Source: a virus. From it: a stretch of 29,377 nt of DNA. Made by a program: the position numbers and the translations under genes. Every line of letters begins with the position of its first letter. Within the stretch, counting starts at the first letter, position 1. Of the stretch, positions 1 through 28,005 are shown piece by piece. Location of the stretch: positions 1 to 29,377 of the IMG/VR virus record IMGVR_UViG_3300042691_044542. The stretch is one strand, 5' to 3'. The notes under the pieces are model-generated. The model saw nothing but the letters and a program-made list of their open reading frames with translations. It was not told where the DNA came from and made no database searches.

Positions 1-1586
1 TACACCCACGCGAACTCAGGAGGTATCCCCATCGGCCGCGAGTGTCCGCGCAGCACGCGATCTCGGTTTGTCTCTTGTTGGTGTTTGTTTGATATTACGT
101 CGTTTGAGGCACCATTAAATTGCTTGTTCTTAAAACCCATCGCGGCAAGCATTGCATTGTTTAACTTATCTGAGTCCTTACCATAGTCATTTGATGCATC
201 ATAGAGCCAAGTTCCGATGGCGAGCGAGAGAATAAGATCGTCGTTCTCTCCCTTCATTGCCTGTGCTTTGTTCTCATTCCAGACAAATGTCTTCAACTCT
301 TCATAGAAACGAGACGAGTATATTAGAAGCTGTTTGTTTCTGATGACCTCTTCGAGCTTTGTGAGGATCTGGTTTCTTGACTTGCCGCTCGTTGTAAAAC
401 CTGCCAGCTCTGTCTCAGCAGGTGGAACATAGTCGCCGATGTAGACAGACTTGTTCTTGTTATAGTACATCTTTGGGTAGCCTAGATCTTTAAGCTTGAC
501 TATGGTTGCATATCCAAATGAGTTATTCTCAGGGCACATTAGCGCCTTATTGTACAGCAAACCATACTCATTTAAGAGTTCACCAAACTTATCTGGTGCA
601 ATCTTACCCTTGTACTCAGCGACTACTTCACCTTCAGTGCAATCGATGACGTGAAAAGTTGAGTAATCTTTCCCATCGCCTCTTGCAACGTCAGCAGAGA
701 CGATGTACTTGTGCTCTGACAGCGCGTGTTTCCAGATCCAGACATTTCTATCTGGCCCGCCGCGATCAATTGGAGGTCGTATAATCTTGCTAATCCACTT
801 GATGTCGTCGTCATTGAGGAACGTCTCACCTGACGCAGCGAAGTCACACAAGTACTCCTGAGCGATCTCTTTAGCGGATAGATTTCTTGTCTCTTTCTCG
901 AACCACGCCTGATCACGTTCAGGATGAACGTCCCAGTTCAGCCTGATGGCCTTAAATTCGTTTAAGCCCGACTCAGCCTCAGTGAAAAGCTTGTAGTATT
1001 GTCCACCCACACCGTTAGGTGTTGAAAGCACAATAGCACGACCACCAGTTGAGATCGTTGGATATAAGCCTGTCCATAGCTCATCAAAGTTTCTAACGAA
1101 TGCTGCCTCGTCGATGATCAGCAGCGACAACGACTCAGAACGACCTGCGTCTTCTGATGTGGGAACAGCCTTGATCGAAGATCCATGACTAAATTCGATC
1201 ATCTGCCGGTTGTTGAGAGTGATCTGCGGGAGCACCATCCACGGCGGAAGGTTACTCACCATTGTCTTCACTTTCTTAATGAAGTTCTGGGCAACACCCA
1301 GCTTAGTTGCGATGATGAGGATATTCTTGTCTTTCTGGAAGAGCGCAAGCCAAACAGAATATGCAGCAACAAGAGTTGACAAGCCAAGCTGCCTGCTCTT
1401 GACAATGACTGTAAATCGATTTTCTATGAAGTCATTGACGCAGTCATCTTGAAATGGGAACGTCTTAAATGGGATCGTTCCCTTAGTTGGATGCTGGATC
1501 TTTACGTAGTTATTGAAAAAATACGCCGGATCTTTGCCACAGCGTATAATCTCAGATACTTGTCTTGACTTGTTGCTCGTGTTCAT
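1..1586 (-). CDS. terL: Terminase large subunit (TerL, T4 gp17-like), 3' end beyond window
   Basis: DNA-packaging motor: an ATPase that pumps DNA into the prohead plus a nuclease that cuts the concatemer. The visible 528 residues start MNTSNKSRQV. The ATPase part has a deviant P-loop KSRQLGLST (residues 63-71), in which the basic residue precedes rather than follows the glycine, Walker B LLIIDEA (155-161) with D159/E160, and the coupling motif STPNG (188-192). The RNase H-like nuclease part shows SADVARGDGKD (D299), PENN (E353) and NDDL (D449/D450), the usual three acidic positions. The ATG overlaps the stop of the preceding gene as ATGA and has no Shine-Dalgarno of its own, so translation is probably coupled. 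The C-terminus runs off the window just after IPPEFAWV. Identity is near certain from motif order and spacing. Confidence 0.95.
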   Translation of the reverse strand, partial: MNTSNKSRQVSEIIRCGKDPAYFFNNYVKIQHPTKGTIPFKTFPFQDDCVNDFIENRFTVIVKSRQLGLSTLVAAYSVWLALFQKDKNILIIATKLGVAQNFIKKVKTMVSNLPPWMVLPQITLNNRQMIEFSHGSSIKAVPTSEDAGRSESLSLLIIDEAAFVRNFDELWTGLYPTISTGGRAIVLSTPNGVGGQYYKLFTEAESGLNEFKAIRLNWDVHPERDQAWFEKETRNLSAKEIAQEYLCDFAASGETFLNDDDIKWISKIIRPPIDRGGPDRNVWIWKHALSEHKYIVSADVARGDGKDYSTFHVIDCTEGEVVAEYKGKIAPDKFGELLNEYGLLYNKALMCPENNSFGYATIVKLKDLGYPKMYYNKNKSVYIGDYVPPAETELAGFTTSGKSRNQILTKLEEVIRNKQLLIYSSRFYEELKTFVWNENKAQAMKGENDDLILSLAIGTWLYDASNDYGKDSDKLNNAMLAAMGFKNKQFNGASNDVISNKHQQETNRDRVLRGHSRPMGIPPEFAWV

Positions 1587-1970: not shown

Positions 1971-2213
1971 CTATCCTCTTAGTATATCTATTTCGTTAAG
2001 TATGTGCGATCTTCTATTAATAATTTCAGCATCCACTTCATCTCTGTTAGGACGCCATCCCATCAACCATTGTGAGCGGTTCGTCTCGGCCCACTTCATG
2101 CCACACTCCGTGCAGCACTGAAACAGCCTGTGGTAGTCAACATCATCTTGCCCAACCATCACTGTCTCACAGACAAGACAGAATAACGGAGTGACATCAG
2201 GAGTATCTGACAC
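1971..2213 (-). CDS. Small zinc-ribbon-like protein (GTG start)
   Basis: An 80-residue protein with a probable zinc site: CLVC at residues 12-15 and CCTEC at 33-37, followed by a Trp-rich stretch ending WLMGWRP and an acidic helix. Function unknown; a DNA- or protein-binding role is only an inference from the Cys pairs. The reading frame stays open upstream to an ATG at 2273, but that segment lies entirely over the 3' end of the upstream nuclease gene. The GTG at 2213 is preceded by GGAGG with five bases of spacing, an excellent ribosome binding site, so I take it as the start. The gene then overlaps the upstream stop by 17 bases. Small proteins with two Cys pairs followed by a GWRP motif seem familiar from myoviruses, but I cannot name a family. 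Confidence 0.8.
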   Translation of the reverse strand: MSDTPDVTPLFCLVCETVMVGQDDVDYHRLFQCCTECGMKWAETNRSQWLMGWRPNRDEVDAEIINRRSHILNEIDILRG

Positions 2214-5200
2214 TTGCGCCTCCGTCGATCCAGTTGATCTCAACAAAGTTGTCAACTGCATCCTTGATTGCATCTACGTGTGAGATGATGAGGATCTGGT
2301 TGAAGTGCTTCTTCAGCGACCGCAGCAGGCGCGAGCATGCTTCAAGATTGGTGTCATCAAGTGCGCCAAACCCTTCGTCAATGATGAAGATGTTGGATTT
2401 AGGCAAAGATGACATATTAATGAGAGCAACTCTTGTCGCAATTGCAGAGATCATCTTTTCCATTCCCGATCCTAGCTCAATTATCCGTCGCTTGTCACCG
2501 TAGTTAATGTAAACTTCAAGTGAGTTCGACTCCTCATCAACCTCAAGCTCGACTGTGAAATTGCAGACACCGAGTAGAATGTTCTGGATCTCAGCATTGA
2601 CAAGAGGAAGTAGTTTAGAGATTAGGCGAGAAGGGAGGCCCTTCTTTGACATGGCGACGTTGAACAACTCAAAGATCTCGAGGTCAGCAAGATCTCGCTC
2701 AAGCGTCTCCTTCTCACTCTGGAGCGTTGTGATCGATGTCTCATGAGCACCGACGTTCTTTGCATTTGTGAGCTGCAATTTACGTGTCTTCTCAAGCTCT
2801 TCTTCTACTTCCTTGATGCTGTCATAGACACCGCATAGGCTGTCTGAGTCGTTGACTACCGCACTTAGACGATCGATCTCAAGATTACATGTAGCAAGAT
2901 CTACATTGACAGTTTTAAGTGATGCCTCTGCATGCTCGATCTTCATATCAAGCTTGCTAACATCAAACTGGAGTGTTCGCTCTTCCTGGAGCATTACGTC
3001 GTATTTCTTGACCTTTTCGTCAAGATTTTGCTCGGCTATTTCGTTAATATCAGCTTGAAGCTGCTTGATGTACTTCCGCTGCTCTTCAACTTCTAGCTGC
3101 TCCTGGCCAATCTTTGACTTGCTCTCAAACGCCTTCTTGATGAATGGACACGTTGGAAATTCGTCGCCGCATGGAACAGTCGATAGAATTCCAACATCTT
3201 CATTCAGCCTTCCTAGAGATTTAAGGTGCTGTTGTAGCTCTCTATTTGCAGCTTCGAGCTTTGTCTCTAGCGACCTTTGTGATTGAACTTTCTGTCGAAG
3301 CTCATCAATAGGAAACTTTTCCTTCAGTGCACTGAACTTCTCAAGGCGAACTGTATGCTTAGCGCGCAGTGCGGAGGCATCCTCAATTTGAGATGTATAC
3401 TCCTTATGCTTCTCAGCAAGACGATCCCTGCGCTGCTCGAGTTCACGCAGCTTGACAGCTGCCTCGACTGATGTATCACCATTGATAATGACACGTAGAT
3501 CTGCTAACTTCCTAGTAAGATCACTGTGTGCATTGTCAAGTTCAGAAGTTTTCTCTCTCTCAACTGCAAGCATCTTTACAGCATCAGAAATTTTTGCATC
3601 AATCTGCTGCTTGTCTCGGCGACCTCTAAACGAGGCACGGAGAGGTACAAGATCCTCTCGTGACCGCTCATAAAGTGAGTCAAAGATGTCAAGATTAAGA
3701 AACTTTCCAATGATCTGCTTGCGGGCTGTCGACTTCTCCTCAAAGAACTTATTGAGGTTTCCTTGAGCTGCAAGCGATGTCATGAAGAAGTCATCTGCAG
3801 TTCCAATTAGCTGTCGCAGCACCTTCTCTGTCTCACGACGCTGTTCATCTGAGACGTCACTTAGCTGCATATCAGTGTCGAGTTTAGTGATGCCTAGCGT
3901 CGTGTTGACGTTGACGTCACCCTTCTTATTGACTGTCTTCTTAGTTCTGCGAGAAATCTTGTACTTGTCACCCTTGACTGTAATGTCTGCTTCAGCATCA
4001 CATGTGTCCTCCTTGTCATTGATGATGTGGAGGTTCTTGAGAGATCCTCTATCTGAGGTGTTGAAGAGACAGTAGACAAGGCTGCCAATGATGGATGACT
4101 TTCCAGCACGGTTCTTGCCAAAGATGCCTGTGATGCCAGATGACTTGGTAAAGTCAATCTCGTTATCACCGCGGAATGCAAACGTGTTCCTAAAAGCCAG
4201 CTTGTCAAGTGACCAGCTGTAGTTTCGATCCTCATCACCACCCAAATCAAGTGACTTCATGTACCTGTCGACGATTGCATCAACACGCTCAAACTTGTCT
4301 TTTGGCAACGCTGAGTCGCTGTAGAAGTCACGGATCAACTCTTTGATTGTGCTAGGCTGCCTGAGATCTGTGACGGGTGTTCCGCTTGTCTTTGCCAGGC
4401 TTTTGCCAGCGTCTAGATCTGCGATCTTATAGACAATCTCTTTAGGTGACTTCTCAGCTTGCAGCTTCGATTCAATGAGGTGCAGCGTTGTAGGTGGCAC
4501 CGGAACATCGGAGCCAATGCGGACACGTGCACCCGTAGGAGCGCTATCGATCATCTGGTAAGTTTCATCAAGATCACCGCGGTAACCGATCGTTACAAAT
4601 GGTGAGTCGTTGATGATGTGGATGAACTTACAGCTGTAATCAACTGATGACTTAATATCCCACAGCAGGCAGCCCTTGATGACATCCTCACCGTAATCCT
4701 GCTGGATGAACGACCCAGGATAGGAGATGACACCGTTGCCTGTGACATTTTGACGCTTGTGAATGTCACCCAGGAATGTGTAGTCAAACTCATCAAAGAA
4801 GCTTGCTGTCACTTCACCGTTGATCTTCCAGTCGGAGTCAGTCGATGACCCACGAACGGCACCGTGGAAGCAAGCGATGTTGATCTCACCCTTGACAGGC
4901 TTGACATCGTCCCACCCCTCCTCGTCAAAGCACGAAAAGACGCACCAGTTGATGCCAGGCAGGCCCGTCGGATAGACACCCGACTTCTTGTACAAGTAGA
5001 TGCGCTTGTTTCCCAGCGCGTTGATGATGGGTGTGATCGCATCTTGTCGGCTCTTGTTGTGGATGAGACCGTCATGATTACCCAGGATCATGTGGACAGG
5101 CGCGATCTCTGCCATCGTCTCAAAGCACCAAGTCAGAATATCAATCAGCTCTGGTGTGATGCCCTGTGTCTTGGAGTGAACGATGTCGCCACCGACGAAG

Positions 5201-5316
5201 AAGACATCAGGCTTCTCCTTTCGAGCGATGTCGAACAATCTAGTGAAACACTTCCTATACTCGTCATGTCGAGACAGGCCTCTAAAATGGATGTCTGAGA
5301 TATGGAACGCTTTCAT
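2197..5316 (-). CDS. Single-chain SbcD-SbcC (Mre11-Rad50, T4 gp47-gp46) nuclease/ATPase fusion
   Basis: One uninterrupted 1039-residue frame joins two proteins that are normally separate. Residues 1-230 are a calcineurin-like nuclease with all metal motifs: SDIH (D8, H10), GGD (D44), GNHD (N80, H81), FHG (H151) and GDIH (D184, H186). About 235-345 would be the SbcD accessory region. From about 367 comes a Rad50/SbcC ATPase with Walker A GIFGKNRAGKSS (near 397-408), two coiled-coil arms of roughly 170 residues each flanking C716/C723, a signature ELGSGMEKM, Walker B IFIIDEGFGALD (D980/E981) and switch ISHVD (H1013). The expected role is processing of DNA ends for recombination-dependent replication, and host DNA degradation. 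The ATG begins the family's usual MKxFHISDIH; its Shine-Dalgarno is weak. Nothing suggests a frameshift. Confidence 0.93.
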   Translation of the reverse strand: MKAFHISDIHFRGLSRHDEYRKCFTRLFDIARKEKPDVFFVGGDIVHSKTQGITPELIDILTWCFETMAEIAPVHMILGNHDGLIHNKSRQDAITPIINALGNKRIYLYKKSGVYPTGLPGINWCVFSCFDEEGWDDVKPVKGEINIACFHGAVRGSSTDSDWKINGEVTASFFDEFDYTFLGDIHKRQNVTGNGVISYPGSFIQQDYGEDVIKGCLLWDIKSSVDYSCKFIHIINDSPFVTIGYRGDLDETYQMIDSAPTGARVRIGSDVPVPPTTLHLIESKLQAEKSPKEIVYKIADLDAGKSLAKTSGTPVTDLRQPSTIKELIRDFYSDSALPKDKFERVDAIVDRYMKSLDLGGDEDRNYSWSLDKLAFRNTFAFRGDNEIDFTKSSGITGIFGKNRAGKSSIIGSLVYCLFNTSDRGSLKNLHIINDKEDTCDAEADITVKGDKYKISRRTKKTVNKKGDVNVNTTLGITKLDTDMQLSDVSDEQRRETEKVLRQLIGTADDFFMTSLAAQGNLNKFFEEKSTARKQIIGKFLNLDIFDSLYERSREDLVPLRASFRGRRDKQQIDAKISDAVKMLAVEREKTSELDNAHSDLTRKLADLRVIINGDTSVEAAVKLRELEQRRDRLAEKHKEYTSQIEDASALRAKHTVRLEKFSALKEKFPIDELRQKVQSQRSLETKLEAANRELQQHLKSLGRLNEDVGILSTVPCGDEFPTCPFIKKAFESKSKIGQEQLEVEEQRKYIKQLQADINEIAEQNLDEKVKKYDVMLQEERTLQFDVSKLDMKIEHAEASLKTVNVDLATCNLEIDRLSAVVNDSDSLCGVYDSIKEVEEELEKTRKLQLTNAKNVGAHETSITTLQSEKETLERDLADLEIFELFNVAMSKKGLPSRLISKLLPLVNAEIQNILLGVCNFTVELEVDEESNSLEVYINYGDKRRIIELGSGMEKMISAIATRVALINMSSLPKSNIFIIDEGFGALDDTNLEACSRLLRSLKKHFNQILIISHVDAIKDAVDNFVEINWIDGGASVRYS

Positions 5317-5729: not shown

Positions 5730-6692
5730 CTATAGAATAGATCCACTTGATATCTTGCTAATTTTGTGCAGCATGCTGATCTTTGGATGCCACGCTTTTG
5801 CATCTGCTATACACTGCTTAGCAACGTCACGCGGCATCTCACCGATGTCTTTAAAACCTGTGATGTCTGCTTGACGGACCTCGACGCCGAACTTGTACAG
5901 ATCACCTGCAATCTTATGCATCTTATCCTCAACGTCGGGGTCGAGTGCCAACGTCACCGGAATATTGTTTGCCACAATCTTGGCAAAAAGTGCTGCTGAT
6001 TGCGGTAGGTACGATCCAAGTATTGGGATTGCATTCTGACCAACGTTGATCGCATCAAAGACGCCCTCGACGATCACGACGGGCTTTGACCAATCAACCA
6101 TTAAATCGTTGAAGATGATCTCTGTCTTGTTTGCTTTTGAATTGACATAGCGAGGTTTTGTGTCCTTATCAATCGAACGTGAGACGTAGTAGTTAAGATC
6201 ACCATCAGAGTCAAATGAGGGTATGATGACGCGTCTTGTAAAGCTATTCTCACTGCTGACACACATCTTCCAATACCACAGGTCGCGCTCAGTTAGGCCG
6301 CGCCGCATCAGATAGTTGTATGTCGCTCTGAAATTAGGGTTCTTAGAGTTTGCCACGAGTGCAACAGGTTGCAAACCGTCAGGCAGTGTCACAACCTCTA
6401 CAACAGGAACCTCAGATGCGTCATCGTCACTAATGCCGAAATGCTCTCTAAAAGCGACAACAACTTCGGGTGAGTAGTACTGCTTAAAGAGCGATCGAAG
6501 ATTTCCACCTTTGACACCACATACCCAGCAGTGGTACTTCCACGTCTCAACGTTGATCGACAGCTTCTTCTTGTCAGGTGTCTTACAGTTTGGGCACGGA
6601 ACAGCACAATCGTTGCCGTCTCGTGAAACTTGGATGTCACGAAATATGCCGCGCAGAAATCTTATCTTCTCGGTCGAAGTGACAGTCGTCAT
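5730..6692 (-). CDS. DnaG-type DNA primase (T4 gp61-like)
   Basis: Makes RNA primers for lagging-strand synthesis, normally together with a replicative helicase that is not in this window. The 320 residues contain an N-terminal zinc-binding domain, CPNC (33-36) and HCWVC (54-58); a catalytic core with RRVIIPSFDSDGDLNYYVSRS (about 153-173), a typical primase core stretch; and a TOPRIM fold with VVIVEGVFDA (E209) and LALDPDVED (D251, D253), then KDIGE. It is short, like phage primases, and lacks a bacterial C-terminal helicase-binding domain. The start agrees with the beginning of the zinc domain; the ribosome binding site is poor. It follows the resolvase gene by 20 bases in the same direction. 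Confidence 0.91.
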   Translation of the reverse strand: MTTVTSTEKIRFLRGIFRDIQVSRDGNDCAVPCPNCKTPDKKKLSINVETWKYHCWVCGVKGGNLRSLFKQYYSPEVVVAFREHFGISDDDASEVPVVEVVTLPDGLQPVALVANSKNPNFRATYNYLMRRGLTERDLWYWKMCVSSENSFTRRVIIPSFDSDGDLNYYVSRSIDKDTKPRYVNSKANKTEIIFNDLMVDWSKPVVIVEGVFDAINVGQNAIPILGSYLPQSAALFAKIVANNIPVTLALDPDVEDKMHKIAGDLYKFGVEVRQADITGFKDIGEMPRDVAKQCIADAKAWHPKISMLHKISKISSGSIL

Positions 6693-6712: not shown

Positions 6713-7273
6713 CTACTCTTTGTTCAACCAGCCTGCTCGAGCCAGCACATATGCATCTGACATATCATAGCACGATGTCTGGACGCCACCCGTCTTTGTG
6801 GTGGGCCACTCAATGTCAATTTGAGGTTTGACGAACTCGAAGATCTGCTGCTTCGTGGACACTTCTGACTTTCGGTCAAGCTTGATACCCAGCTTCGACC
6901 TTGCTGACGTGGCATTGAGAAAGACGGGTTTTGTCTTGCAAACTTCGTAAGAGATCAGAGACGCTGCGCCATTAAAACGAGCGAGTGTATTGATCGTCTT
7001 AGCAGATGACATGCCTGGCCGGAATGCTTGCAAGTTCTCCTCGATGCAGATCTTCTTGATGCCCACATGCCTTGCAAAAACTGCCGAGAGTGCGGTCCTA
7101 TAAGCATCACACTTATCGAAGAAGTCATCAAGCTTGTCAAGCTTAAAATTTCCTACCTCAACTACTCTGCCCACATCTGTCGTCACAATCGCGTAGCCTG
7201 TGCATGACGTCGAGATGTCGAGGCCGAGGATCGTATCACATGTCGTACTTAATTCTAAAGAGAAACTCTTCAT
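6713..7273 (-). CDS. RuvC-like Holliday junction resolvase
   Basis: Cleaves four-way DNA junctions. The 186 residues show the RNase H-fold pattern of RuvC: ILGLDISTSCTGYAIV (D19) on the first strand, KICIEENL (E78/E79), and the C-terminal pair YDMSDAYVLARAG (D170, D173). Length is close to bacterial RuvC. T4 uses the unrelated endonuclease VII (gp49) for branched DNA, so this phage would use a different nuclease for the job. The start ATG lies 38 bases inside the end of the preceding tail gene, with AAGAGG four to five bases before it; the next in-frame choices would cut into the first strand. The location in the late-looking structural operon suggests it clears junctions before packaging. 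Confidence 0.88.
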   Translation of the reverse strand: MKSFSLELSTTCDTILGLDISTSCTGYAIVTTDVGRVVEVGNFKLDKLDDFFDKCDAYRTALSAVFARHVGIKKICIEENLQAFRPGMSSAKTINTLARFNGAASLISYEVCKTKPVFLNATSARSKLGIKLDRKSEVSTKQQIFEFVKPQIDIEWPTTKTGGVQTSCYDMSDAYVLARAGWLNKE

Positions 7274-9662: not shown

Positions 9663-10565
9663 CTATAAACATGTTTTATTATCCTTAAATTCATCGCCTC
9701 GAGCGTGCGTCAATCCTAAATCGGCTTCGGTTACGATCCTGTAGCTAATTCCCAGGTCATTGCAAAATTTTATTGCTGCACTTGTCTTTACAGACACTTC
9801 ATCAGATGAAACCAGAGTGCAAGGTTTCACTTCAATAATCTCTTTTTTACCATCGCGATATTCTACTAAGAAATCTGGAATGTAGTTCTTTCGTCTTTCA
9901 TCATGTGTGTAGGGTATCTTTAATGGTTCGGATGTAAATGTTACTACATCGTTGTCATTATCAAGTTGCCTTGCAAAAACACTTTCGTAAGATGACCGCA
10001 GAAAAATTCTGCCTGCTTTCTTAGATACGTACCACTCTGTCTTAAAGCCCGTATGTGTCCAAAGACCGTCGACAATCTTTTGAGAGATGGCATCTGATAC
10101 TTTTTCAGAATTTCTTTTGACACGATCGTCTGTATAAGCTGTCAATCCGCTGTTCCAAGCAGGTTTTCCAAACCTGTGATTTGCTGCACCTCTACAATGA
10201 TAGAATGCATTTCTTTCACCTAAATTTGCGCATGATTTAGAGCAAAATCGTCGAGCTCTATTGATAAACGTCGTCTCAAAATTGCTTCCGCAGCCTTCGC
10301 AAGAAATGATTATAGGCCCATCAGGTCTCTGATAAAGATGATCGTAAGCACATTTCTGTGTGCAAAATCTAGCATCTTCTGCTCTAAACTTTATGACATC
10401 AAATTCCGTGCCGCAGTGCTCGCACGTCTTCGTGACGCGTTGGCGTTTTGTTCCGGAGTTGGAGCAAGCTTTTGAGCAATATTTTGAGCTTCTCGATCTA
10501 TAGGGAACCTGCCAGATCTTTTGGCAGAACTGGCAGGTGACTTGAACTGGTGCAAATTTCGTCAT
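9663..10565 (-). CDS. Free-standing homing endonuclease: zinc-finger triplet, NUMOD3, PD-(D/E)XK nuclease
   Basis: A 300-residue mobile-gene product unlike its virion-protein neighbours. It has three tandem Cys4 fingers: C11/C14/C30/C34, C48/C51/C68/C72 and C89/C92/C108/C112, each of form CxxC, 15-16 residues, CxxxC with an aromatic residue before the third Cys. Then comes a NUMOD3-type DNA-binding motif FGKPAWNSGLT (132-142). The C-terminal nuclease shows RSSYESVFARQL (E194), YIPDF (D231) and IIEVKP (E245, K247), a PD-(D/E)XK core. It would cut an allele lacking the gene so that repair copies it in. It fills a gap between two tail genes and does not interrupt either. The ribosome binding site is poor and lies in a possible hairpin (10569-10595). 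A non-mobile repair enzyme of TnsA or Vsr type is the main alternative. Confidence 0.86.
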   Translation of the reverse strand: MTKFAPVQVTCQFCQKIWQVPYRSRSSKYCSKACSNSGTKRQRVTKTCEHCGTEFDVIKFRAEDARFCTQKCAYDHLYQRPDGPIIISCEGCGSNFETTFINRARRFCSKSCANLGERNAFYHCRGAANHRFGKPAWNSGLTAYTDDRVKRNSEKVSDAISQKIVDGLWTHTGFKTEWYVSKKAGRIFLRSSYESVFARQLDNDNDVVTFTSEPLKIPYTHDERRKNYIPDFLVEYRDGKKEIIEVKPCTLVSSDEVSVKTSAAIKFCNDLGISYRIVTEADLGLTHARGDEFKDNKTCL

Positions 10566-12581: not shown

Positions 12582-14402
12582 TTACGTGGGCCTAAAGACA
12601 CGGGCTGTCGAAGGCGTGATAACTGGAGGTTCAACATAACTATCGTTGATCTTAATATCAAGCGTTTGGCTCTGCTGGAAGTCAGTATTAACAACAAGTA
12701 GTTTATAACTGTTATCATCGCCGCGATTATTGTTGAAGACAACGTGCTCTTGATCATCGCCAGTTGCATCTGTGATGCTGATGTACTCAGGATCAAAATA
12801 AATGTTGAGGCGTGTGTAGCCTGACATCTTCATGGTATCGACAAATGTGTCACGGTTAAGAAAAATGTTAGGGTATGGCTTAGGCGCATCGGATCTAGAG
12901 ATGACACGCGTGTTAATCCTATTGCGGTATCTATCGTAAGATGCTTCAAGCTGCACTGAGTAGTTAGACGTGTAGCCGTGCGCGTCGATGGCACACACTG
13001 CATAGATGAACCTACTGTTCTTAGTGAACTCTGTGTCTCTGTGCAGCGTAGTGGGTAGCAAGCTACGTGTTATCAGGCGTTCTGGTACACGCTCTGGATC
13101 TGGTGTCTTGACAACTGAGTCGTCAAAATCGTACATTCTAAGTAACTGAAATGGCTCAGAAGTCGAGCTTCTCCGAAAAACTTGAATTTTCTTAATGTCA
13201 GCTTGCAAGTTGATGGGAAAATTCCACGTAATGTTTAAGCCTGTATTGTCAGCTCGATATCTAAATGCGAGATCAACGGGTGGAGGAGGTGCAATGTACT
13301 CTTCGCAGACGACGGATGCATCTGATCCTCTTGATGCAAACAGGGCATACCTGGTCACAACTTTATCTTCTTCGGTTCCAAATGCTGTTGTCACTTGCTG
13401 GTTCATCTGAAACTGACATGCATACAGAGAGATCACTCTGTACTTGTAACTTCTTCCGTATGCGATCTCAGGATCGATGAACGAAGTTGTATTTGGATTG
13501 AGATCAAGCTTCTCACTAAAGATGTCGACTGTTCCATCGTCACGTGTGCCAAACTTTTGAATGATGTAGCCGATTAAATTATTCTTGAGTGTCGGTGAGA
13601 CAATGACAGCATCATCAATAAAATTAAAATCTGCTTCATAGTCAGATGTTCTGAGAACGTATGGCCTGCTCCCAGCAACAGATTGATCTTCCACTTCATT
13701 CAATTCCGTTTGTGTACTAGAGATCTCATCTGCATAAACATTCTTCGGTGAGCTTAGGCTGGCATCTGCAACTGTTCCTGCAACAGTAGGTAGAAAAGAA
13801 AAGCCAAACTCAAGCCCACGTAGTGTCTCTTCAACAGCACTAACTTTGATTTGACGCATATCAGACACTGCGTATCTGTATCCGTCGGGCTGTATGCTAT
13901 TCACGACGGCATCAAGAATTCTTCTTGATGCGCTGCTAGTTTCTTGATCTTGGAGAGCAGTGATTGACCCTGACAGGATACGGTAAATTGTCTTGTCCAG
14001 CGTTGTGTCAATAATGCTGACACCTACTCTTCCAAACACATTAAGCGCAGCTTCTCGAGCAACATTTCCCTTTATATCTGTTCTACTAATTGATAAGTTT
14101 CTATCAATTGCGACAGGAGGCTTTGTGATGGTTATTCTGTTAAATCTGGGATAGACAGCGTTGCGTCCATAAAACGCTCTGAGTGTTTCATTTTGTATGT
14201 TCGATGTACCGATATTATCTGTATACGTTGATGTTGTTAGATCAACGTCGGTCGATGTAAAACCGACGCTACCGTACACATTAGACGTCTCGTTAGTACG
14301 CTCATCGGACGTAAAAAAGTTGTAGACGAACTTTGCTTCTATGCTGCTGACTTCGGGAAGATCAACTAACAAAGCAGGTTTTGATATGACTGTCTCGGTC
14401 AT
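12582..14402 (-). CDS. Structural protein with two Ig/FnIII-like domains
   Basis: A 606-residue protein. The N-terminal 250 residues are of unknown fold, with an acidic beginning and Thr/Ser-rich strands. Two FnIII-like repeats follow: about 255-370, with the YKYRVISLYA strand, and about 371-487, opening APPPPVDL and with LNITWNFP, IKKIQVFRR and FIYAVCAIDAHGYTS, the usual strand order of a fibronectin type III domain. Such domains decorate tail and baseplate proteins of many phages. The start is convincing: AGGAGGT about nine bases before the ATG, which overlaps the preceding stop as ATGA. Exact position in the virion cannot be inferred. Confidence 0.85.
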   Translation of the reverse strand: MTETVISKPALLVDLPEVSSIEAKFVYNFFTSDERTNETSNVYGSVGFTSTDVDLTTSTYTDNIGTSNIQNETLRAFYGRNAVYPRFNRITITKPPVAIDRNLSISRTDIKGNVAREAALNVFGRVGVSIIDTTLDKTIYRILSGSITALQDQETSSASRRILDAVVNSIQPDGYRYAVSDMRQIKVSAVEETLRGLEFGFSFLPTVAGTVADASLSSPKNVYADEISSTQTELNEVEDQSVAGSRPYVLRTSDYEADFNFIDDAVIVSPTLKNNLIGYIIQKFGTRDDGTVDIFSEKLDLNPNTTSFIDPEIAYGRSYKYRVISLYACQFQMNQQVTTAFGTEEDKVVTRYALFASRGSDASVVCEEYIAPPPPVDLAFRYRADNTGLNITWNFPINLQADIKKIQVFRRSSTSEPFQLLRMYDFDDSVVKTPDPERVPERLITRSLLPTTLHRDTEFTKNSRFIYAVCAIDAHGYTSNYSVQLEASYDRYRNRINTRVISRSDAPKPYPNIFLNRDTFVDTMKMSGYTRLNIYFDPEYISITDATGDDQEHVVFNNNRGDDNSYKLLVVNTDFQQSQTLDIKINDSYVEPPVITPSTARVFRPT

Positions 14403-17400
14403 CTGTTATTACCTCCTAGGCGTCCACCAAATCGATTGCTTGTCTCTACGACAGCATTTATTCCTACACTATCAATGCCTTGTGACCTAACATCTGTTTC
14501 CACAAATGTTGTCAAAGCATTCTGGAGCGCATTTGAGTAGCTTCTACGTGTTGTTGCTGCCTCAAATGAGACGGGTGGCTGACTTGCTTCAAGACGAACC
14601 TTGGCAACGACATCTAAAAATGCAATGTCTTCTCTGCTGATCTGGAGTTGCTCAATAACTTCACTGACGTCGACAGGTATCACATGTATCCTTTCAAACG
14701 TCTTTGACACCATCATTGATGTCTTGTGCTGATCGGGTGCAAGCTGTATTGACCTCGATAGATCGCGAAGTACACGCTCCTTGTTGAGCTGGCCTTCCGG
14801 TGTATCTGGATAGTTGACTGCAATTCGATCAACTATTGTCGTGTAATTAGCATCCTGTGCAGCATCTGGGTAGCGTCTACCTTGTGGGATGAGATCAAAA
14901 ACCTCCTCATCAAGTGTTATACCTGCCGTCGTCTTCAACAATAGCTTTGCATAATGGCTCATGAGATGGTTATTGACAATTTTACTATCTCCCAGGATGC
15001 TCTCAAGGTCAGTAATTGAGATATCACGATAGTTTCCTGCATCATCAATAATTTTGTACTTTGTAGCACCATAAATCTGACTGTAATTTTTTAGTTCACT
15101 TGCTCTAGTGTCAGCTCCACCTGTTTGCTGCGCGCCCTCATTAATAAAGACACGTGTTGAAAATGTGTACCCTTTTGTCACAAACGACTCAAGTGTACGT
15201 GTATCTTCTTCATCCTGTGTAACCTGGATGTTCTTAAATACTAGATCAATGCTATAAAGGTGCTCTGATGTTGACACAGTATTTTGATATCTTAGTGTCT
15301 CCATTAGGCCCGTTGGCAACCCAACAGCTACTAGGAACTGTCTAGTCACTATGTCGCTAATTGGGTCGTTCAAATCTGGATGAGTTGCGACCGCTGTCTT
15401 TGTATTCAATGCTTGACCCACATTGTGATCTATCGCAGTTGGAAGATAAGCTGCACCTCGTAAGAGGTTTGTGTATCGATCAACAATATTTCTCTTAAGA
15501 AAAGCTTGCTCTGATTGAATAGCGTTGAGAAGCGACTCAGTGCTCTGGAGCTGATTAGATCGTTGCAGGCGCGCGACATTTTCAACTTTTGTCTTGAAAT
15601 CTTGAGCCTGATTTTTGATCTGTTGCGCATGATTGACCAAAAGATTTACTAGATCGAGACAAACTTGATTTTGCTGGTTGATCTTTTGAACTATTGAATT
15701 GAAGTAGGTGCTCTGTAAGTACCGGACACTATCCTTGAATTTTTGAACTCTATTGCTATTGACAAAATCGGTTGAATTTGCCAGATATTGATTGATAGTT
15801 GTATCTAAATCAGAAGGTGATAGTTCGGCATTCTCTATAGAAAGTTTTAGTGCTTTAAATTGATCTGGATAGTACTTGACAGTCATTTTTTGATCAGTGG
15901 GTGAGTAATCAACAGTTATATTCATCTCTCTAAAGATGCTTAAGAAGAGATTTAAAATGACAAATGCACGTGCATCTCTAGTAAGTGTCAAACCAAAAGA
16001 TGTCCTTGCATCAAAAAACCTTTGAAAGTTTCCTATGTCATCAATCAAAACTCTTTCTGTTTCTCTAACAACATTGTGAAATGTTTGAAATGACGAGTCA
16101 TCATCTTGCATGTAAGAGAACACTGTTGAGTAATTTACGCTTTGTATGACACGCTCTGCTTGTGCACCTAGAATTGTGACATTTCCGTCACCAGTTTCAG
16201 CATTTCTTTTACTAAAAATATCATCAGCCAATTTTAGGCGCGCAGCGCTTATTTCTTCTTGATTTAAATCATCATCATTTATCTTCTTATCAAGTGCACA
16301 TATCAGTCTAAAAAGGCGCGTCATAGTTTTATCATCATTTGCAGCCATGACAAAGCATGCAATTCTGAATGCACTTCCACTGCTGCTTATTTCATCTGTA
16401 TTGATCTCTGATCCTCGTATAAAACTTAAAAAGTAATCTTTTATCTTGTCAACAATTGCGCTCTGGTTCTGCACTATCGTGTTAAAAACAAGATCGTTGA
16501 TCTGTCTTGCGTAAAGATCATACTGTTCTGATGAATTCAAGAGATTAGAAAATTCTAGTGATGAGTTTGATCTTGAAAGATCGTCGTAGATTAAGTAATC
16601 AATACCTTTGACAACATCAAATTTACCATATCCAATTCCACCCGAGTCGACGGTAACGAGAGCATCACGAAATCTCTGTGATGACGAGGCTCTTGTTTCT
16701 GACCGAAAACCTACTACGGCATCAGATGTCTCTAAGATCTCATTAATATTTCTATATCCAATTGACACAACATCACGATCTTCAGAAGTTGCGCGCTCAT
16801 AATCCTTGATCTGTGTGTACAGCGATGTGTAATTTCCCAGTACATCTAGAGCTGTAACATCTGTTGTACTTCCCGTTATTTCAAATTGCTCGTTTCTTAA
16901 ACCATGAATTGTTAAATCTCTCTGAATTAGGCGAACAAGGCTTGTAATTTTGTCTGCATTCTTGAATGGTTCAAATCCAAATATTGGGCTGCCATTATCA
17001 TACAGCTGAACTGATCTAACGTTTGTGTCATCAATTGACACGATTTCAGGTACAATTTTTCTAAGATTTCTAATCTGATTAACATAAAATTCACTCAAGT
17101 ACCCATCTACTATTCCTTCTTTAGCAGCTGCATAGGGTCCGTTTAAAGAATAATTTTCAGTGAAAGACAGCTCGCCAAATAAGAAATAAAAATATACTGT
17201 CTTCAGTATTTGAGCAATTGATTGTGTATTTGTACCAACTTCAAACACATTGATGTTGTAATCTTCATTTATGTTCTTCAAATAATCTGTAATGCTGCTT
17301 ACACTTCTTAGATAGTCGTAACGTTCTCCAATTAAATTAAACGATCTAAAGTAAGAATTCTGATTTGTGTCAACATTTGCAATATTTAGAAGCCTGATCA

Positions 17401-18076
17401 GCTTATCTTTCGAAATTGCAGTTTGTAAGCATAGATCTGAATATTGCCTTGCAATCTGCACATTCTGATCATATTGGGTAGTTGTAAGCTGCAGTAATGC
17501 CGTGTTTTGATCAAGTGCTGCTTTGACGTCACTCTCAACTGTCTTCTTGACTTCATTATTGAGATCAATAATGAACGGTGTTGTTGTCAATCCAGAGCCT
17601 ACATCTACAACTTTAGCCGTTCTAGGTGTCGTCAATAGAATTGCTGGATACTGTGACGTCAATCCATGTGAGGCGGTGAGGTAAACATCACGCGATGAAG
17701 CATCTAGCAAGTTATAATCTTGATCGTCTTCAAGCATTTGTTGTAGCATGCTTCCATAGTTCTGGCGCTGCTGCACGCTGCCTCGCACTGCGCCTGTTGT
17801 TGACCTTGACCCAAAACTCGGCCCTCGCTGGCCCAATCGAGATGCAAGCGCGCCTGCGGCTGTTCCTCTATCATTTATTGTCGGTCCGGGCGACCCAAAA
17901 CTCGGCCCTCGCTGCGCTAATCGTGCTGTAATGTCTTCAGCTGTTGTTCCTCTGCTGCCTGCTTCTTCTCTTGCTGATTGTGCATCAGAAAATGCATTAG
18001 TTGCAGTATCTGCTGTTCTATTGCGCTGTGCTTGAACCTGCAAGTTAGATAATGTACTTCTATAATCATAAGGCAT
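14399..18076 (-). CDS. Very large structural protein of unknown family (1225 residues)
   Basis: No recognisable enzymatic or lectin domain. Residues 1-100 are low in hydrophobics and rich in Arg, Ala, Gly and Thr, and include two 28-residue repeats (42-69 and 70-97) with QRGPSFGS in each, so this part is probably disordered. The remainder is long and mostly helical, with many Asp/Asn/Gln. A stretch near residues 825-890 (QQIKNQAQDFKTKVENVARL region) has coiled-coil character. The start ATG at 18076 shares one base with the preceding stop (TGATG) and has GAGGT seven bases upstream; a GTG directly before it is a poorer choice. Its size and place between FnIII-type genes suggest a tail or baseplate component. 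A tape-measure role is conceivable but unsupported by membrane segments. Confidence 0.85.
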   Translation of the reverse strand: MPYDYRSTLSNLQVQAQRNRTADTATNAFSDAQSAREEAGSRGTTAEDITARLAQRGPSFGSPGPTINDRGTAAGALASRLGQRGPSFGSRSTTGAVRGSVQQRQNYGSMLQQMLEDDQDYNLLDASSRDVYLTASHGLTSQYPAILLTTPRTAKVVDVGSGLTTTPFIIDLNNEVKKTVESDVKAALDQNTALLQLTTTQYDQNVQIARQYSDLCLQTAISKDKLIRLLNIANVDTNQNSYFRSFNLIGERYDYLRSVSSITDYLKNINEDYNINVFEVGTNTQSIAQILKTVYFYFLFGELSFTENYSLNGPYAAAKEGIVDGYLSEFYVNQIRNLRKIVPEIVSIDDTNVRSVQLYDNGSPIFGFEPFKNADKITSLVRLIQRDLTIHGLRNEQFEITGSTTDVTALDVLGNYTSLYTQIKDYERATSEDRDVVSIGYRNINEILETSDAVVGFRSETRASSSQRFRDALVTVDSGGIGYGKFDVVKGIDYLIYDDLSRSNSSLEFSNLLNSSEQYDLYARQINDLVFNTIVQNQSAIVDKIKDYFLSFIRGSEINTDEISSSGSAFRIACFVMAANDDKTMTRLFRLICALDKKINDDDLNQEEISAARLKLADDIFSKRNAETGDGNVTILGAQAERVIQSVNYSTVFSYMQDDDSSFQTFHNVVRETERVLIDDIGNFQRFFDARTSFGLTLTRDARAFVILNLFLSIFREMNITVDYSPTDQKMTVKYYPDQFKALKLSIENAELSPSDLDTTINQYLANSTDFVNSNRVQKFKDSVRYLQSTYFNSIVQKINQQNQVCLDLVNLLVNHAQQIKNQAQDFKTKVENVARLQRSNQLQSTESLLNAIQSEQAFLKRNIVDRYTNLLRGAAYLPTAIDHNVGQALNTKTAVATHPDLNDPISDIVTRQFLVAVGLPTGLMETLRYQNTVSTSEHLYSIDLVFKNIQVTQDEEDTRTLESFVTKGYTFSTRVFINEGAQQTGGADTRASELKNYSQIYGATKYKIIDDAGNYRDISITDLESILGDSKIVNNHLMSHYAKLLLKTTAGITLDEEVFDLIPQGRRYPDAAQDANYTTIVDRIAVNYPDTPEGQLNKERVLRDLSRSIQLAPDQHKTSMMVSKTFERIHVIPVDVSEVIEQLQISREDIAFLDVVAKVRLEASQPPVSFEAATTRRSYSNALQNALTTFVETDVRSQGIDSVGINAVVETSNRFGGRLGGNNR
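17786..17953 (-). repeat. Two tandem 84-bp repeats inside the 1225-residue protein gene
   Basis: Two in-frame units of 28 codons encode related segments, the first with RLAQRGPSFGS and the second with RLGQRGPSFGS. Within them a 23-bp block is identical at 17808-17830 and 17892-17914, exactly 84 bp apart. The flanking parts have diverged, so the duplication is not brand new, yet the core is conserved at the nucleotide level. Confidence 0.85.
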
Positions 18077-20493
18077 CACACCACCTCGAATTGACGCGTT
18101 GTTGTCTCATTTAGCGTTGTTCCATCGTACTTGACAGGAGTGACGACATATGCAATCTGCCCCGTCCTCAACCTCGTCTTGTCATCAAGGAAATTTTGTC
18201 GCACACTATCGTCAACGTAGTGACACGTTCCAACGATAGATCTCACGCCGCCCTTGATCGTTGAGATGATAAAGAAGTCGATGACTTTTTGTGCGGTTGT
18301 GCTGGTTACATCAAATGATATGAGGCGGCGGCCTTCATCAACTGTGACGAGTTCAAAGTTATTGATATTTGTCGATCCAGCTGTTTGATTTACAGCAAAT
18401 ATATCCGTGATACCTAGACGCCCTTGCAAGAAACCTGATGTGTCGACATCGGTAACTTTTGTGTTGCCATACGACAAAGTTCCCCGCAGCGTAGCCTTCT
18501 TGGACAGGAACTTCTGTGTGAAGTTAACTTTTGAAAGTTGTGGTTTTGACGTCAAGTTTGACGACACAATTTGACTTCGCTGGAGAGCATCTCTCGGATT
18601 GAAAACACGGGGTGACGTCTTATCTGCACCTATCTCTTCAAAAAGATCAGCTTGGCCTCGTAGGAGGCCCTCAAAGATGTAGACGACATTCTCAGTCGCT
18701 GTATCAGTAAAATCTCCAGGTGTCACAACACCCAGATCTTTGATCTCACCTGTGTCGAGCGATACCCTTCTAACATTCACCTTTGTGATGGAAGACAGAT
18801 CGCCCGACAACTTTAACGTCTCTTCTTCAAAGTAGTTATCAATTCCCTGCTCTTTCGTCGCGTTTAGGATTGCTGTTGTATCACTATCCTTAGTAAGTGT
18901 AACAGACACATTGAATGTTGTTGTGGTGCTCGCACCGCTGACATTTACACTCTTCTGCGTAACACTAATTTCCGTGCCTGATGTGTAGTCAGTAACTCTA
19001 ACCACGGATGTTGTTCTTGCACGCTTAATATTACCGTAAGTGTCCTGCAGGAAGGCAGCATACTCATATGTGCGCTCAGTGTTGACTGTCAAATCTTCAA
19101 TTGTAGCGATCCCGGCACCTATCTTTAGTGGTGTCTGTATGTTATCCCATTGCTTCTGTTTCTTGTCGATAGATCGACGCACAAACTGGACGTACTTGTA
19201 ATTTGCAGGAGCACCGAACAGCTCAATGGTCACATTTCCTTTGTTCGCAGTTGCGACAACTGTACCCGCGACAAGTTCATCTCTCACAGACAGCGTTTTA
19301 CTCTCAAAATTGCCTAGCACAATGCCAGATGTAAGCACAGGCACAGCACGAATGATCTTATTTGTTGTTGACTTGATCGGTAACTTTCTCGTGATTGCCT
19401 GCTGGCGCCAATCTGCTGGAAGTGTTCCAACGACCTTGAATGGTGCTTGCTGGGCCACAGACTGATAGGTGGGAACGTCTCGATTGTAGATCCTAATCCC
19501 AGTCACTCGAGGATCTTTGTTGAAGACATTGACTTGTGCAGTCGTCTTAGACACAAATTGGACGCCGATCGCTGGAAGCTGACTTGGTACGCTATTTTTG
19601 ATGAGCTGGCGCGCATGATTAATTGTAAAGTCAATCTTCTGGACAAGGTCACCATTTGCCTTCCTGATCGTGCATATGATGGTAAATTTACCGCTGGGCG
19701 GTGTCAAAGATGCTGGGATTCGAAATGTGTGCGGTAGCAGCACGTCTGTTGATACTTTCTGACGCTTCTGTGCTGTTAAAGTTGCAGGAAGGAGGTTGTT
19801 CCTGTTGCCCTGGAGTGCTGTTGTTGTGAACGCACCCCCGATGGTGCGCTGCTGCTGTTGTGCTGCACCCATTCCCTTGCGAGCAATCTCAGCATCTTCA
19901 ACTAGGCTTGCACCCACAATCTGCTTTGCAGGATCTCTGCCTGACAAAGTTAGATTTGAGTACACGTTGACGCCGCTGGACGACGTAGCCTCGGGAGGTG
20001 TGTTCTTGATAAGATCAGATGCGATGATCTTTGATACTTGACTAGAGGGCAAGCCTGCAACGGGCTCAAATGTGCTCTCAATGACTGCAAGATCAACAAA
20101 TCTTGAACCTTGCAGACGAAAACGACTCACTTTCCTTGAGCGTGAGAAAATGTCTGCTCGTCGGGTCGTGATGGTGTTATCTAGCTGTTCTTTATCACGA
20201 TCATTGACGAAATCTCTTCGGATCCTTTTACCGCCGAGGATCTGGTTGTTGATATCGCTCGTTGTTGCGAAAGTTCTTCCACCAAGAAGCGCGAATGTCT
20301 TGCCCACACGCTTGTAAGCAATATCAACACGCATCGTCCTAACATTTGCAGCATAAGCTGCAATCTGGTCGACCAAGAAGCTGACTGTGTACTCATAGAA
20401 CTGTCTATCGTCAACGGTCACAGTTTTGAGGTCAATGCTTGACTGTGGGAGATCTTTGATGATCGTGATCAGATCGCTGTTGACTGTGTTCAT
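18076..20493 (-). CDS. Structural protein with Ig/FnIII-like domains
   Basis: An 805-residue protein. The first 90 residues include a hydrophobic-basic stretch ending in LLGGRTF, then a basic segment RRADIFSRSRKVSRFRL. A Gln-rich linker lies near 210-216 (AAQQQQ). From about 250 on, the sequence is beta-rich: an Ig-like unit at 255-395 and an FnIII-like unit at about 410-500, with VTIELFGAPANYKYVQFVRRS and TYEYAAFLQDTYGN. At least two further strand-rich units run to the C-terminus, which ends TRQFEVV. The order of domains resembles the 12582-14402 product and both probably belong to the same tail substructure. The ATG directly follows the preceding stop (TAAATG) with GGAG about five bases upstream. 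Confidence 0.85.
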   Translation of the reverse strand: MNTVNSDLITIIKDLPQSSIDLKTVTVDDRQFYEYTVSFLVDQIAAYAANVRTMRVDIAYKRVGKTFALLGGRTFATTSDINNQILGGKRIRRDFVNDRDKEQLDNTITTRRADIFSRSRKVSRFRLQGSRFVDLAVIESTFEPVAGLPSSQVSKIIASDLIKNTPPEATSSSGVNVYSNLTLSGRDPAKQIVGASLVEDAEIARKGMGAAQQQQRTIGGAFTTTALQGNRNNLLPATLTAQKRQKVSTDVLLPHTFRIPASLTPPSGKFTIICTIRKANGDLVQKIDFTINHARQLIKNSVPSQLPAIGVQFVSKTTAQVNVFNKDPRVTGIRIYNRDVPTYQSVAQQAPFKVVGTLPADWRQQAITRKLPIKSTTNKIIRAVPVLTSGIVLGNFESKTLSVRDELVAGTVVATANKGNVTIELFGAPANYKYVQFVRRSIDKKQKQWDNIQTPLKIGAGIATIEDLTVNTERTYEYAAFLQDTYGNIKRARTTSVVRVTDYTSGTEISVTQKSVNVSGASTTTTFNVSVTLTKDSDTTAILNATKEQGIDNYFEEETLKLSGDLSSITKVNVRRVSLDTGEIKDLGVVTPGDFTDTATENVVYIFEGLLRGQADLFEEIGADKTSPRVFNPRDALQRSQIVSSNLTSKPQLSKVNFTQKFLSKKATLRGTLSYGNTKVTDVDTSGFLQGRLGITDIFAVNQTAGSTNINNFELVTVDEGRRLISFDVTSTTAQKVIDFFIISTIKGGVRSIVGTCHYVDDSVRQNFLDDKTRLRTGQIAYVVTPVKYDGTTLNETTTRQFEVV

Positions 20494-21507
20494 TTACTCC
20501 GCCACGATTGTAAAGAGATTGACGAAGGCAGGTGCCTGAAAGTTATCCTCGCTGTCAGCAGCATAAACCTTGCCGACGAAAAATACGCGCTTGAACGGGC
20601 GCTGCCTGTCATTCTCATCTTTAAACTCACCAAAGTCAATGCAGTCAAGTTTCTTGAGCATCTCAACACCTGTGCTGTCTGTTGTTGAGCCTTCAAAGAT
20701 CTGCATGAAGACGTTACTCGCAAGAGATGTCTCAGCAAAGTCAACAGTTATCTTCTCCTTGAGAGAAACTTGAGGATCTGATCCGACAAGATTGCGCATT
20801 AGCTCATCATAAGTTAGTGGTTCTACTTCAGAGATTGGCAGGTACGTACCCAAATTTTGCTGGATGTCAGTATCATCTACGTAGACAGGTGCTAAAAACT
20901 GAAAATTATCTAGATGAGAGAGTTGACGGTCAATCATGAAAGGATCAAGTGATCCAATCTGACCTACAGGCTGCGTTCCACGAAATGGGACAAAGTTGTT
21001 TCTTCGGAAAGTGATAGATCCTGTCGTCAGCTTGAATTGACTGTAGATCTCGTAGGGTAGTGACGTCTGTATGAGTTGCTGCTCAGTCAGACTGTCAAGG
21101 ATGGATCCGCTGACCAGCTCAAACATGGATGCAAATGAGCTCGTCACAGGTGCATAGTTAACGCGATTGTAAGTTCCCGCTCCGCCTGGTGATGCCAGTG
21201 TATCGATAGATGCGGAATAAACTCGGCCATCAGACGAAACTCTTGTCGTACTGCCGTCATAAGGAACCAACAAGCCACTGTCGTCGTTCTCGATGACGAT
21301 CTGATCCTGGACACGATTGCCTGCTTCAAAGTAGATGTATGAAGATGCATCATCTGAACCACTCACAGCATCTTTTGCGTAGAAAACGTGTCGATCTGTA
21401 AAAGATGCGAACTGTGGGACAAATTTTCCTGCAGCGAGCTGGCGACGGCCCTCAACAGTGAGAACGACGTCCATGATGCGTGTTTTTGAATCGAGAATAC
21501 CAGACAT
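20494..21507 (-). CDS. Phage structural protein with GR-LA N-terminal domain (second copy)
   Basis: A 337-residue protein starting MSGILDSKTRIMDVVLT, then GRRQLAAGKF and a Phe-rich FASFTDRHVFY. This start aligns with the first 50 residues of the 11828-12532 product, with two small gaps, while the remainder differs. A segment PYEIYSQFKLTTGSITF and an acidic C-terminal part (FGEFKDENDRQRPFKRVFFVGKVY) suggest a folded virion protein, but no known domain is evident. No Shine-Dalgarno precedes the ATG; instead an extended -10 promoter-like element ends nine bases upstream. A tail or baseplate location is inferred from the neighbours only. Confidence 0.84.
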   Translation of the reverse strand: MSGILDSKTRIMDVVLTVEGRRQLAAGKFVPQFASFTDRHVFYAKDAVSGSDDASSYIYFEAGNRVQDQIVIENDDSGLLVPYDGSTTRVSSDGRVYSASIDTLASPGGAGTYNRVNYAPVTSSFASMFELVSGSILDSLTEQQLIQTSLPYEIYSQFKLTTGSITFRRNNFVPFRGTQPVGQIGSLDPFMIDRQLSHLDNFQFLAPVYVDDTDIQQNLGTYLPISEVEPLTYDELMRNLVGSDPQVSLKEKITVDFAETSLASNVFMQIFEGSTTDSTGVEMLKKLDCIDFGEFKDENDRQRPFKRVFFVGKVYAADSEDNFQAPAFVNLFTIVAE

Positions 21508-21516
21508 GCTATTCTA

Positions 21517-21545
21517 ATTATAACAGTGTCATCATGTCTTGAAAA
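21517..21545 (-). promoter_or_regulatory. Candidate sigma-70-type promoter with extended -10
   Basis: On the minus strand a perfect extended -10 (TGTTATAAT) occupies 21517-21525 and a weak -35 match (TTTTCA) lies at 21540-21545 with 17-base spacing. Initiation would fall almost at the ATG of the gene starting at 21507, giving a nearly leaderless message, in line with the absence of a Shine-Dalgarno. It may be a chance match in an AT-rich 24-base gap. Confidence 0.35.
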
Positions 21546-23868: not shown

Positions 23869-23870
23869 TG

Positions 23871-24599
23871 TCAGCCTTTAAGCCCGCCGAAGGCGATTGA
23901 GTCGCGGTCATTGCCTGCATACACAAAACCTCCTGCCGCATATCGATCATACAGATTTACATTCTGGTTTAAAATATTGATACCAAATCGATCCGTGTCG
24001 TCGTGCCTTAGATCTTCGAAGGGCTTTAGAAGCTGGTCATTCATGGACAAGATTGCAGGAACTGTTATTCCTAAAATCTCCTCTTGACCGTCTAGAAAAT
24101 CATCTAGCCCGTCGAGCAGCTGGTATTTGCTATCTAGCAATTGTGTGCCTATATACTCGTTCTCTCCGTTGAGGCTTCCCTTGAAACCACGTGAAGAGAA
24201 GGGAACTTCAATACCACTGGGATCAAAAATGCTGATTTGACCATCATTTTTCTCATCAATCACTTGCCGTGTGGCAAGCTCACTGAGAAAGCTCTCTGCC
24301 AGATCTCCCTGGATGATCTGTGCGGGTGTCCAGCGTTCTGTGGTATCCACATACGCGGTTGTTGATGCTTTGACATCCTGCCCAAGATCGTTGATCTCTA
24401 TTGATTTATCTATCAGCCCTTGCTCATCGACTCTGATCGACCGCATTCCCATGTAAGGCAGCAAGCCTTTTCTCAGGCGTAGTGGATCTCTGATCTCATT
24501 GCCCTGGAGCAGCTGGCTTACAGGAGTTATGTCTATGCCATCCTGGTTGGAATTGCCTCTAATGACGTGAAGGCTCTCGTTAAATGGTGTGTATGACAT
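23871..24599 (-). CDS. Structural-module protein of unknown function (242 residues)
   Basis: I do not recognise a family. The protein is acidic and polar, with MSYTPFNESLHVIRG at the start, a repeated Leu/Asp-rich part (KYQLLDGLDDFLDGQEEIL, about 156-174) and a Gly-rich end (AFGGLKG). There is no signal peptide or transmembrane helix. It lies between the baseplate-like 1131-residue protein and the 778-residue protein with gaps of eight and two bases, so it is probably part of the same assembly or a chaperone for it. No Shine-Dalgarno is evident before the ATG. Confidence 0.82.
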   Translation of the reverse strand: MSYTPFNESLHVIRGNSNQDGIDITPVSQLLQGNEIRDPLRLRKGLLPYMGMRSIRVDEQGLIDKSIEINDLGQDVKASTTAYVDTTERWTPAQIIQGDLAESFLSELATRQVIDEKNDGQISIFDPSGIEVPFSSRGFKGSLNGENEYIGTQLLDSKYQLLDGLDDFLDGQEEILGITVPAILSMNDQLLKPFEDLRHDDTDRFGINILNQNVNLYDRYAAGGFVYAGNDRDSIAFGGLKG

Positions 24600-24607
24600 G
24601 GTAATAA

Positions 24608-28003: not shown

Positions 28004-28005
28004 GA

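Follow-up and report, generated by a model that had tools for sequence, protein, structure and literature searches.

Fusion of the Mre11 nuclease and the Rad50 ATPase was described by Yoshida, Claverie and Ogata in 2011 for the Mimivirus protein R555, together with twelve further fusions in bacteria, plasmids, eukaryotes and one Bacillus phage, 0305phi8-36 (PMC3175470). The same authors calculated that a linker of at least 9-12 residues is needed to bridge the gap between the two parts, and inferred the fusion to be abundant in aquatic viral metagenomes, many copies being phage-borne (PMC3175470). A literature search returned no other reports of the fusion beyond this paper. In T4 (gp46/gp47) and other phages with an SbcCD pair, the same two domains are encoded by two genes. 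The apex of the Rad50 coiled coil bears a CxxC motif (PMC5093744).

The window analysed here is the whole stretch of 29,377 nucleotides, positions 1 to 29,377 of the IMG/VR virus record IMGVR_UViG_3300042691_044542. The first-pass annotation had placed all nuclease and ATPase motifs in one frame of 1039 residues, and the ORF, Pfam, PHROGs and the motifs themselves agree; its coordinates stand, and the strand, which it did not state, is minus, with the ATG start at window position 5316 (Table 1). Domain searches likewise bear out its identification of a Mre11-like nuclease joined to a Rad50-like ATPase in a single chain. Pfam assigns residues 1-187 to Metallophos (E=2.6e-13), 384-1028 to SMC_N (5.7e-12) and 373-638 to AAA_23 (7.5e-8), while PHROGs assigns 1-356 to the SbcD-like phrog_100 (8.3e-27) and 370-1037 to the SbcC-like phrog_77 (1.7e-52). 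Based on these matches, a calcineurin-like phosphoesterase of the Mre11/SbcD type makes up the N-terminal third, and a Rad50/SbcC ABC ATPase the remainder. In a PDB profile search, a profile of 48 fused sequences hit E. coli SbcC (2.8e-34) and the Thermotoga Mre11 and Rad50 structures.

Table 1. Features of the fused gene and its conserved neighbours (window coordinates; residues are those of the fusion protein)
Feature	Position	Strand	Basis
Fused Mre11-Rad50 protein gene, 1039 aa + stop	2197..5316	-	ORF/translation; Pfam; PHROGs; frame intact in relatives
Mre11/SbcD-type phosphoesterase nuclease core, residues 1-232	4621..5316	-	Metallophos (E=2.6e-13); motifs in 46 sequences; model
Capping-like domain (putative), residues about 237-300	4417..4608	-	Secondary structure of model and length match to Mre11 (PMC3175470)
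Helix-loop-helix, residues 321-355	4252..4356	-	Predicted helices 321-331 and 339-355
Inter-domain linker, residues 356-366, 11 aa	4219..4251	-	Model; purifying selection
Rad50 ATPase head, N-terminal half, residues 367-560 (Walker A 400-408)	3637..4218	-	AAA_23, SMC_N; SbcC PDB profile match
Antiparallel coiled coil, residues about 569-889	2650..3612	-	Model helices
Apex C716-x6-C723 (CGDEFPTC), in place of CxxC zinc hook	3148..3171	-	Invariant in 46/46; apex loop 714-723 between two helices (model)
Rad50 ATPase head, C-terminal half, residues 890-1038 (SGME 950-953, D980 E981, H1013)	2203..2649	-	Domain, profile and motif matches
T4-type terminase large subunit, conserved downstream neighbour, runs off window	3..1586	-	Terminase_6N (E=2.4e-17); beside fusion in most loci
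DnaG-like primase, conserved upstream neighbour	5730..6692	-	phrog_47 (E=1.5e-39); in 82 related loci
RuvC-like Holliday junction resolvase, conserved upstream neighbour	6713..7273	-	phrog_159, phrog_827; in 71 related loci

All motifs of the Mre11 phosphoesterase set (DxH, GDxx[DH], GNHD, H, G[HD]xH) are present, as D8xH10, G43-D-I-V-H47, G79NHD82, H151 and G183DIH186, with motifs II and V in the variants of the R555 type. The bipartite ABC ATPase set around the coiled coil is also complete, comprising Walker A (400-408), the signature S950GME953, Walker B (D980E981) and the H-loop (H1013); the signature is SGME instead of SGGE. In an alignment of 46 relatives the catalytic motifs are invariant or nearly so.

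As judged from its published description, R555 has the same architecture as the window protein, with Mre11 at the N-terminus and Rad50 at the C-terminus of one chain, joined by a helix-loop-helix region and a short linker; it is longer (1351 aa) and has a longer coiled coil. Both proteins have GDxxH in motif II (Asp to His) and GDxH in motif V, in which Asp replaces the first His of GHxH (Mre11 His206 to Asp), a substitution also reported for R555 (PMC3175470). These two positions differ from the motifs of SbcD-family proteins and of P. furiosus Mre11 (PMC3175470), and might be taken to indicate a structural, tethering SMC-like protein whose nuclease has been inactivated through the altered motifs II and V. 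We regard this as very unlikely, given that the altered residues are conserved in relatives and were reported for R555 (PMC3175470). In addition, two phages with separate genes, Goe3 and A511, have GDxxH, and a third, RHph_N2_6, has both GDxxH and GDxH; thus, the substitutions are not exclusive to fusions. The residues that have been substituted into motifs II and V are still able to bind metal.

An AlphaFold2 model of the fusion was generated from 46 alignment rows, two rows from the phages collection having been left out. Mean pLDDT is 83.7 and pTM is only 0.48, so that the placement of the domains relative to each other is unsure; residues 301-313 form a low-confidence stretch. The first-pass annotation had set the linker at about 345-367. 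The model retains about 356-366 of this and assigns 345-355 to the predicted helix-loop-helix, leaving 11 residues, in agreement with the 9-12 calculated by Yoshida et al. By analogy with Thermotoga Mre11 (PMC3175470), the helix-loop-helix is expected to dock on the root of the coiled coil. Foldseek matches the model to solved Mre11-Rad50 and SbcCD complexes and to SbcD, and several giant-virus fusions are among the best structure matches. Near full-length matches (E 6e-59 to 2.5e-42) were obtained with predicted DNA repair proteins of Tupanvirus, Yasminevirus, Harvfovirus and the Tenacibaculum phages pT24 and PTm1, which have 1310-1389 aa and are 15-21% identical to the window protein. Tupanvirus, Yasminevirus and Harvfovirus are giant viruses that infect eukaryotes, unlike the window phage.

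The fusion is not an assembly error, and chance and a frameshift, the latter raised by the first-pass annotation as grounds for discarding it, are excluded. The single frame is intact in independent contigs from other metagenomes at 96-100% protein identity, and is kept in every complete relative retrieved from the same group, at identities as low as about 32-36%. It exceeds 1000 aa in 77 of the 82 loci examined. Among the five exceptions, two are cut off by the ends of their contigs, and three are distant hits on genome contigs. Synonymous and non-synonymous changes were counted against seven close copies. In nearly every domain comparison, including the linker, pN/pS was about 0.1 or less (the highest value, 0.18, results from 3 changes), and the junction is therefore translated and under selection. 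An artefact of this kind, in which a sequencing or assembly frameshift joins two overlapping genes, is probably real in Listeria phage LMTA-57, where a single ORF is one nucleotide shorter than the separate genes of close relatives. For the window gene its probability is negligible in view of the independent contigs, the 77 loci and the linker.

The LMTA-57 gene (KJ591605.1, 59521-62550) is annotated as one 1009-aa recombination exonuclease, and its product is present in BFVD as a fused model. In about 50 close records of Listeria phages the nuclease and ATPase genes occupy different frames, only LMTA-57 having a full-length single ORF, and this pattern suggests that the ORF is probably a sequencing frameshift.

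A conserved internal start for a separate Rad50 was sought in the linker of the 46 relatives and none was found; in 22 of the 46 there is no internal ATG or GTG with any score in the linker region. The 1:1 stoichiometry of nuclease and ATPase proposed by the first-pass annotation is thus to be expected from a single ORF that lacks a conserved internal start. At the level of sequence, these comparisons establish that one translated polypeptide contains an entire nuclease, an entire ABC-ATPase head and a coiled coil, and that selection has kept them fused. Since stoichiometry and nuclease placement are fixed, the compact chain of 1039 residues may lend itself well to structural work on the complex.

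An IMG/VR scan identified at least 584 stretches encoding relatives of the fusion. Among plasmids, 298 records match, none of them covering 80% of the query. The novelty implied by the first-pass annotation does not hold, as fusions have been described since 2011 (PMC3175470) and that of the window phage belongs to this described kind. The annotation had allowed that a survey might find the fusion common and already characterised. It is common, and it has been described by sequence; as to biochemical characterisation, the literature search found no study of a Mre11/Rad50 fusion. The inference that Yoshida et al. drew from short reads is now shown with assembled contigs and a conserved gene order: abundant aquatic tailed phages carry the fused Mre11-Rad50 as a standard gene, and it is no giant-virus curiosity.

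Based on both fusion protein and terminase, the nearest cultured relative is Microcystis phage Mel-JY01. Its 'AAA domain containing protein' (WWT39521.1, 1066 aa) is the same fusion, 29-30% identical over the full length, and is adjoined by a primase as in the window, with the terminase elsewhere in the record. Flavobacterium phage immuto, which has a related terminase, was considered as a case of a split fusion beside the primase and rejected, none of the three candidate genes reading as Mre11 or Rad50.

Two-gene phage SbcCD, such as T4 gp46/gp47, resembles the window protein in its two domains and compact coiled coil, and is expected to carry out the same reaction. It differs in having two genes where the window has a single ORF, GHxH in motif V, an S-x-GE signature and a CxxC apex. 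In trees of both half-proteins, the phage fusions that were sampled cluster together and are separated from eight two-gene phages (support 99/98 and 100/99), a result that is compatible with one fusion origin among the sampled phages, within the limits set by long branches and small sampling.

Seven of these eight two-gene phages (T4, S-SSM7, Goe3, a Klebsiella phage, A511, RHph_N2_6 and LP65) have a CxxC apex. The eighth, Moorella phage MTATph1, lacks CxxC and has cysteines at 361 and 369 (C-x7-C). Other fused phages have CxxC, namely Mel-JY01 (CKHC), LR756508 (CEYC) and LR756501 (CVTC). By contrast, the window protein has no CxxC zinc hook; the pattern of its clade is CGDxFPxC, both cysteines and their spacing being invariant in 46/46 sequences. 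We tentatively suggest, at rather less than even confidence, that the fused enzyme of this clade uses a different apex hook, which might be another metal site, a disulfide or some other joining of two molecules, perhaps co-adapted to the single chain. No paper on a CX6C hook was found in the literature search, which is weak evidence as subscription journals lie outside its coverage; this detail is possibly unreported. With its invariant C-x6-C apex, the clade offers a way to test if a zinc hook depends on the CxxC geometry.

The conserved gene order is RuvC-like resolvase, primase, fusion, two small genes and T4-type terminase. In about 100 loci, many of them incomplete themselves, the terminase is matched in 95 and the primase in 82. 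All 12 large records searched (63-289 kb, completeness unproven) contain a terminase and one strong SbcC match, which is the fusion; one of the 12 has a second, marginal SbcC match. The owners of the fusion are tailed phages, an abundant lineage of large aquatic ones.

We consider it very probable that the gene product is a single-chain Mre11-Rad50 (SbcDC) enzyme of the R555 type that acts in this phage lineage as follows. Two chains would dimerise via the ATPase heads and the coiled-coil apexes into an M2R2 shape, each supplying a nuclease to the M2R2-like clamp, with the helix-loop-helix docking the nuclease on the coiled-coil root. ATP binding and hydrolysis would control the access of the nuclease to DNA ends or hairpins. 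The fusion would be the phage's only gp46/gp47 equivalent, a separate copy elsewhere being conceivable if the records are incomplete, and together with the neighbouring primase and RuvC-like resolvase it would make recombinogenic ends for recombination-dependent replication and repair. This role in replication is inferred from the T4 analogy and from the neighbours. The SGME signature and the C-x6-C apex are departures from the canonical forms that count against the reading as a whole.

T4 gp46/gp47 are annotated as needed for the degradation of host DNA as well as for recombination, and some SMC-type complexes act in immunity (PMC10586767). The fusion might therefore serve mainly to degrade host or competitor DNA, or act in inter-phage conflict, instead of in phage replication. 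This appears unlikely, since the fusion lies in a conserved replication/packaging neighbourhood (primase, RuvC, terminase), as expected of a core gene and not of an accessory gene.

The 3' end of the fusion gene is overlapped by 77 nt by a 100-aa ORF (1971-2273, minus strand), which has matches in 78 related loci and, with its CLVC and CTEC pairs, may be a small zinc protein. At 14399-29172 (minus strand), seven ORFs (242-1226 aa) have no PHROG match at 1e-3, and are presumably virion proteins of an uncharacterised lineage.

Two relatives of the fusion gene are broken or split. In a 484-kb uncultured phage (LR756508.1, 5935-10160) the gene is interrupted directly behind motif V (GDIHKRQ). The interrupting stretch of about 1 kb holds a 305-aa ORF whose product has a TnsA-like nuclease domain, and is likely a homing-type insertion. 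In the window, a 300-aa ORF (9663-10565, minus strand) has a TnsA-like nuclease domain (E=3.2e-16) and HNH-endonuclease PHROG matches. It is matched in only 5 related loci, one match being the insert in LR756508.1 (23% identity), and is thus probably a mobile endonuclease. In a Prochlorococcus single-cell contig (QCKH01000004.1, 4992-8859) the nuclease core (272 aa) is encoded apart from a 793-aa ORF, which starts with a part resembling the cap and helix-loop-helix and continues with Rad50, a 220-aa coiled-coil-like ORF lying between the two halves. Because the break falls inside Mre11, fission of an earlier fusion is suggested.
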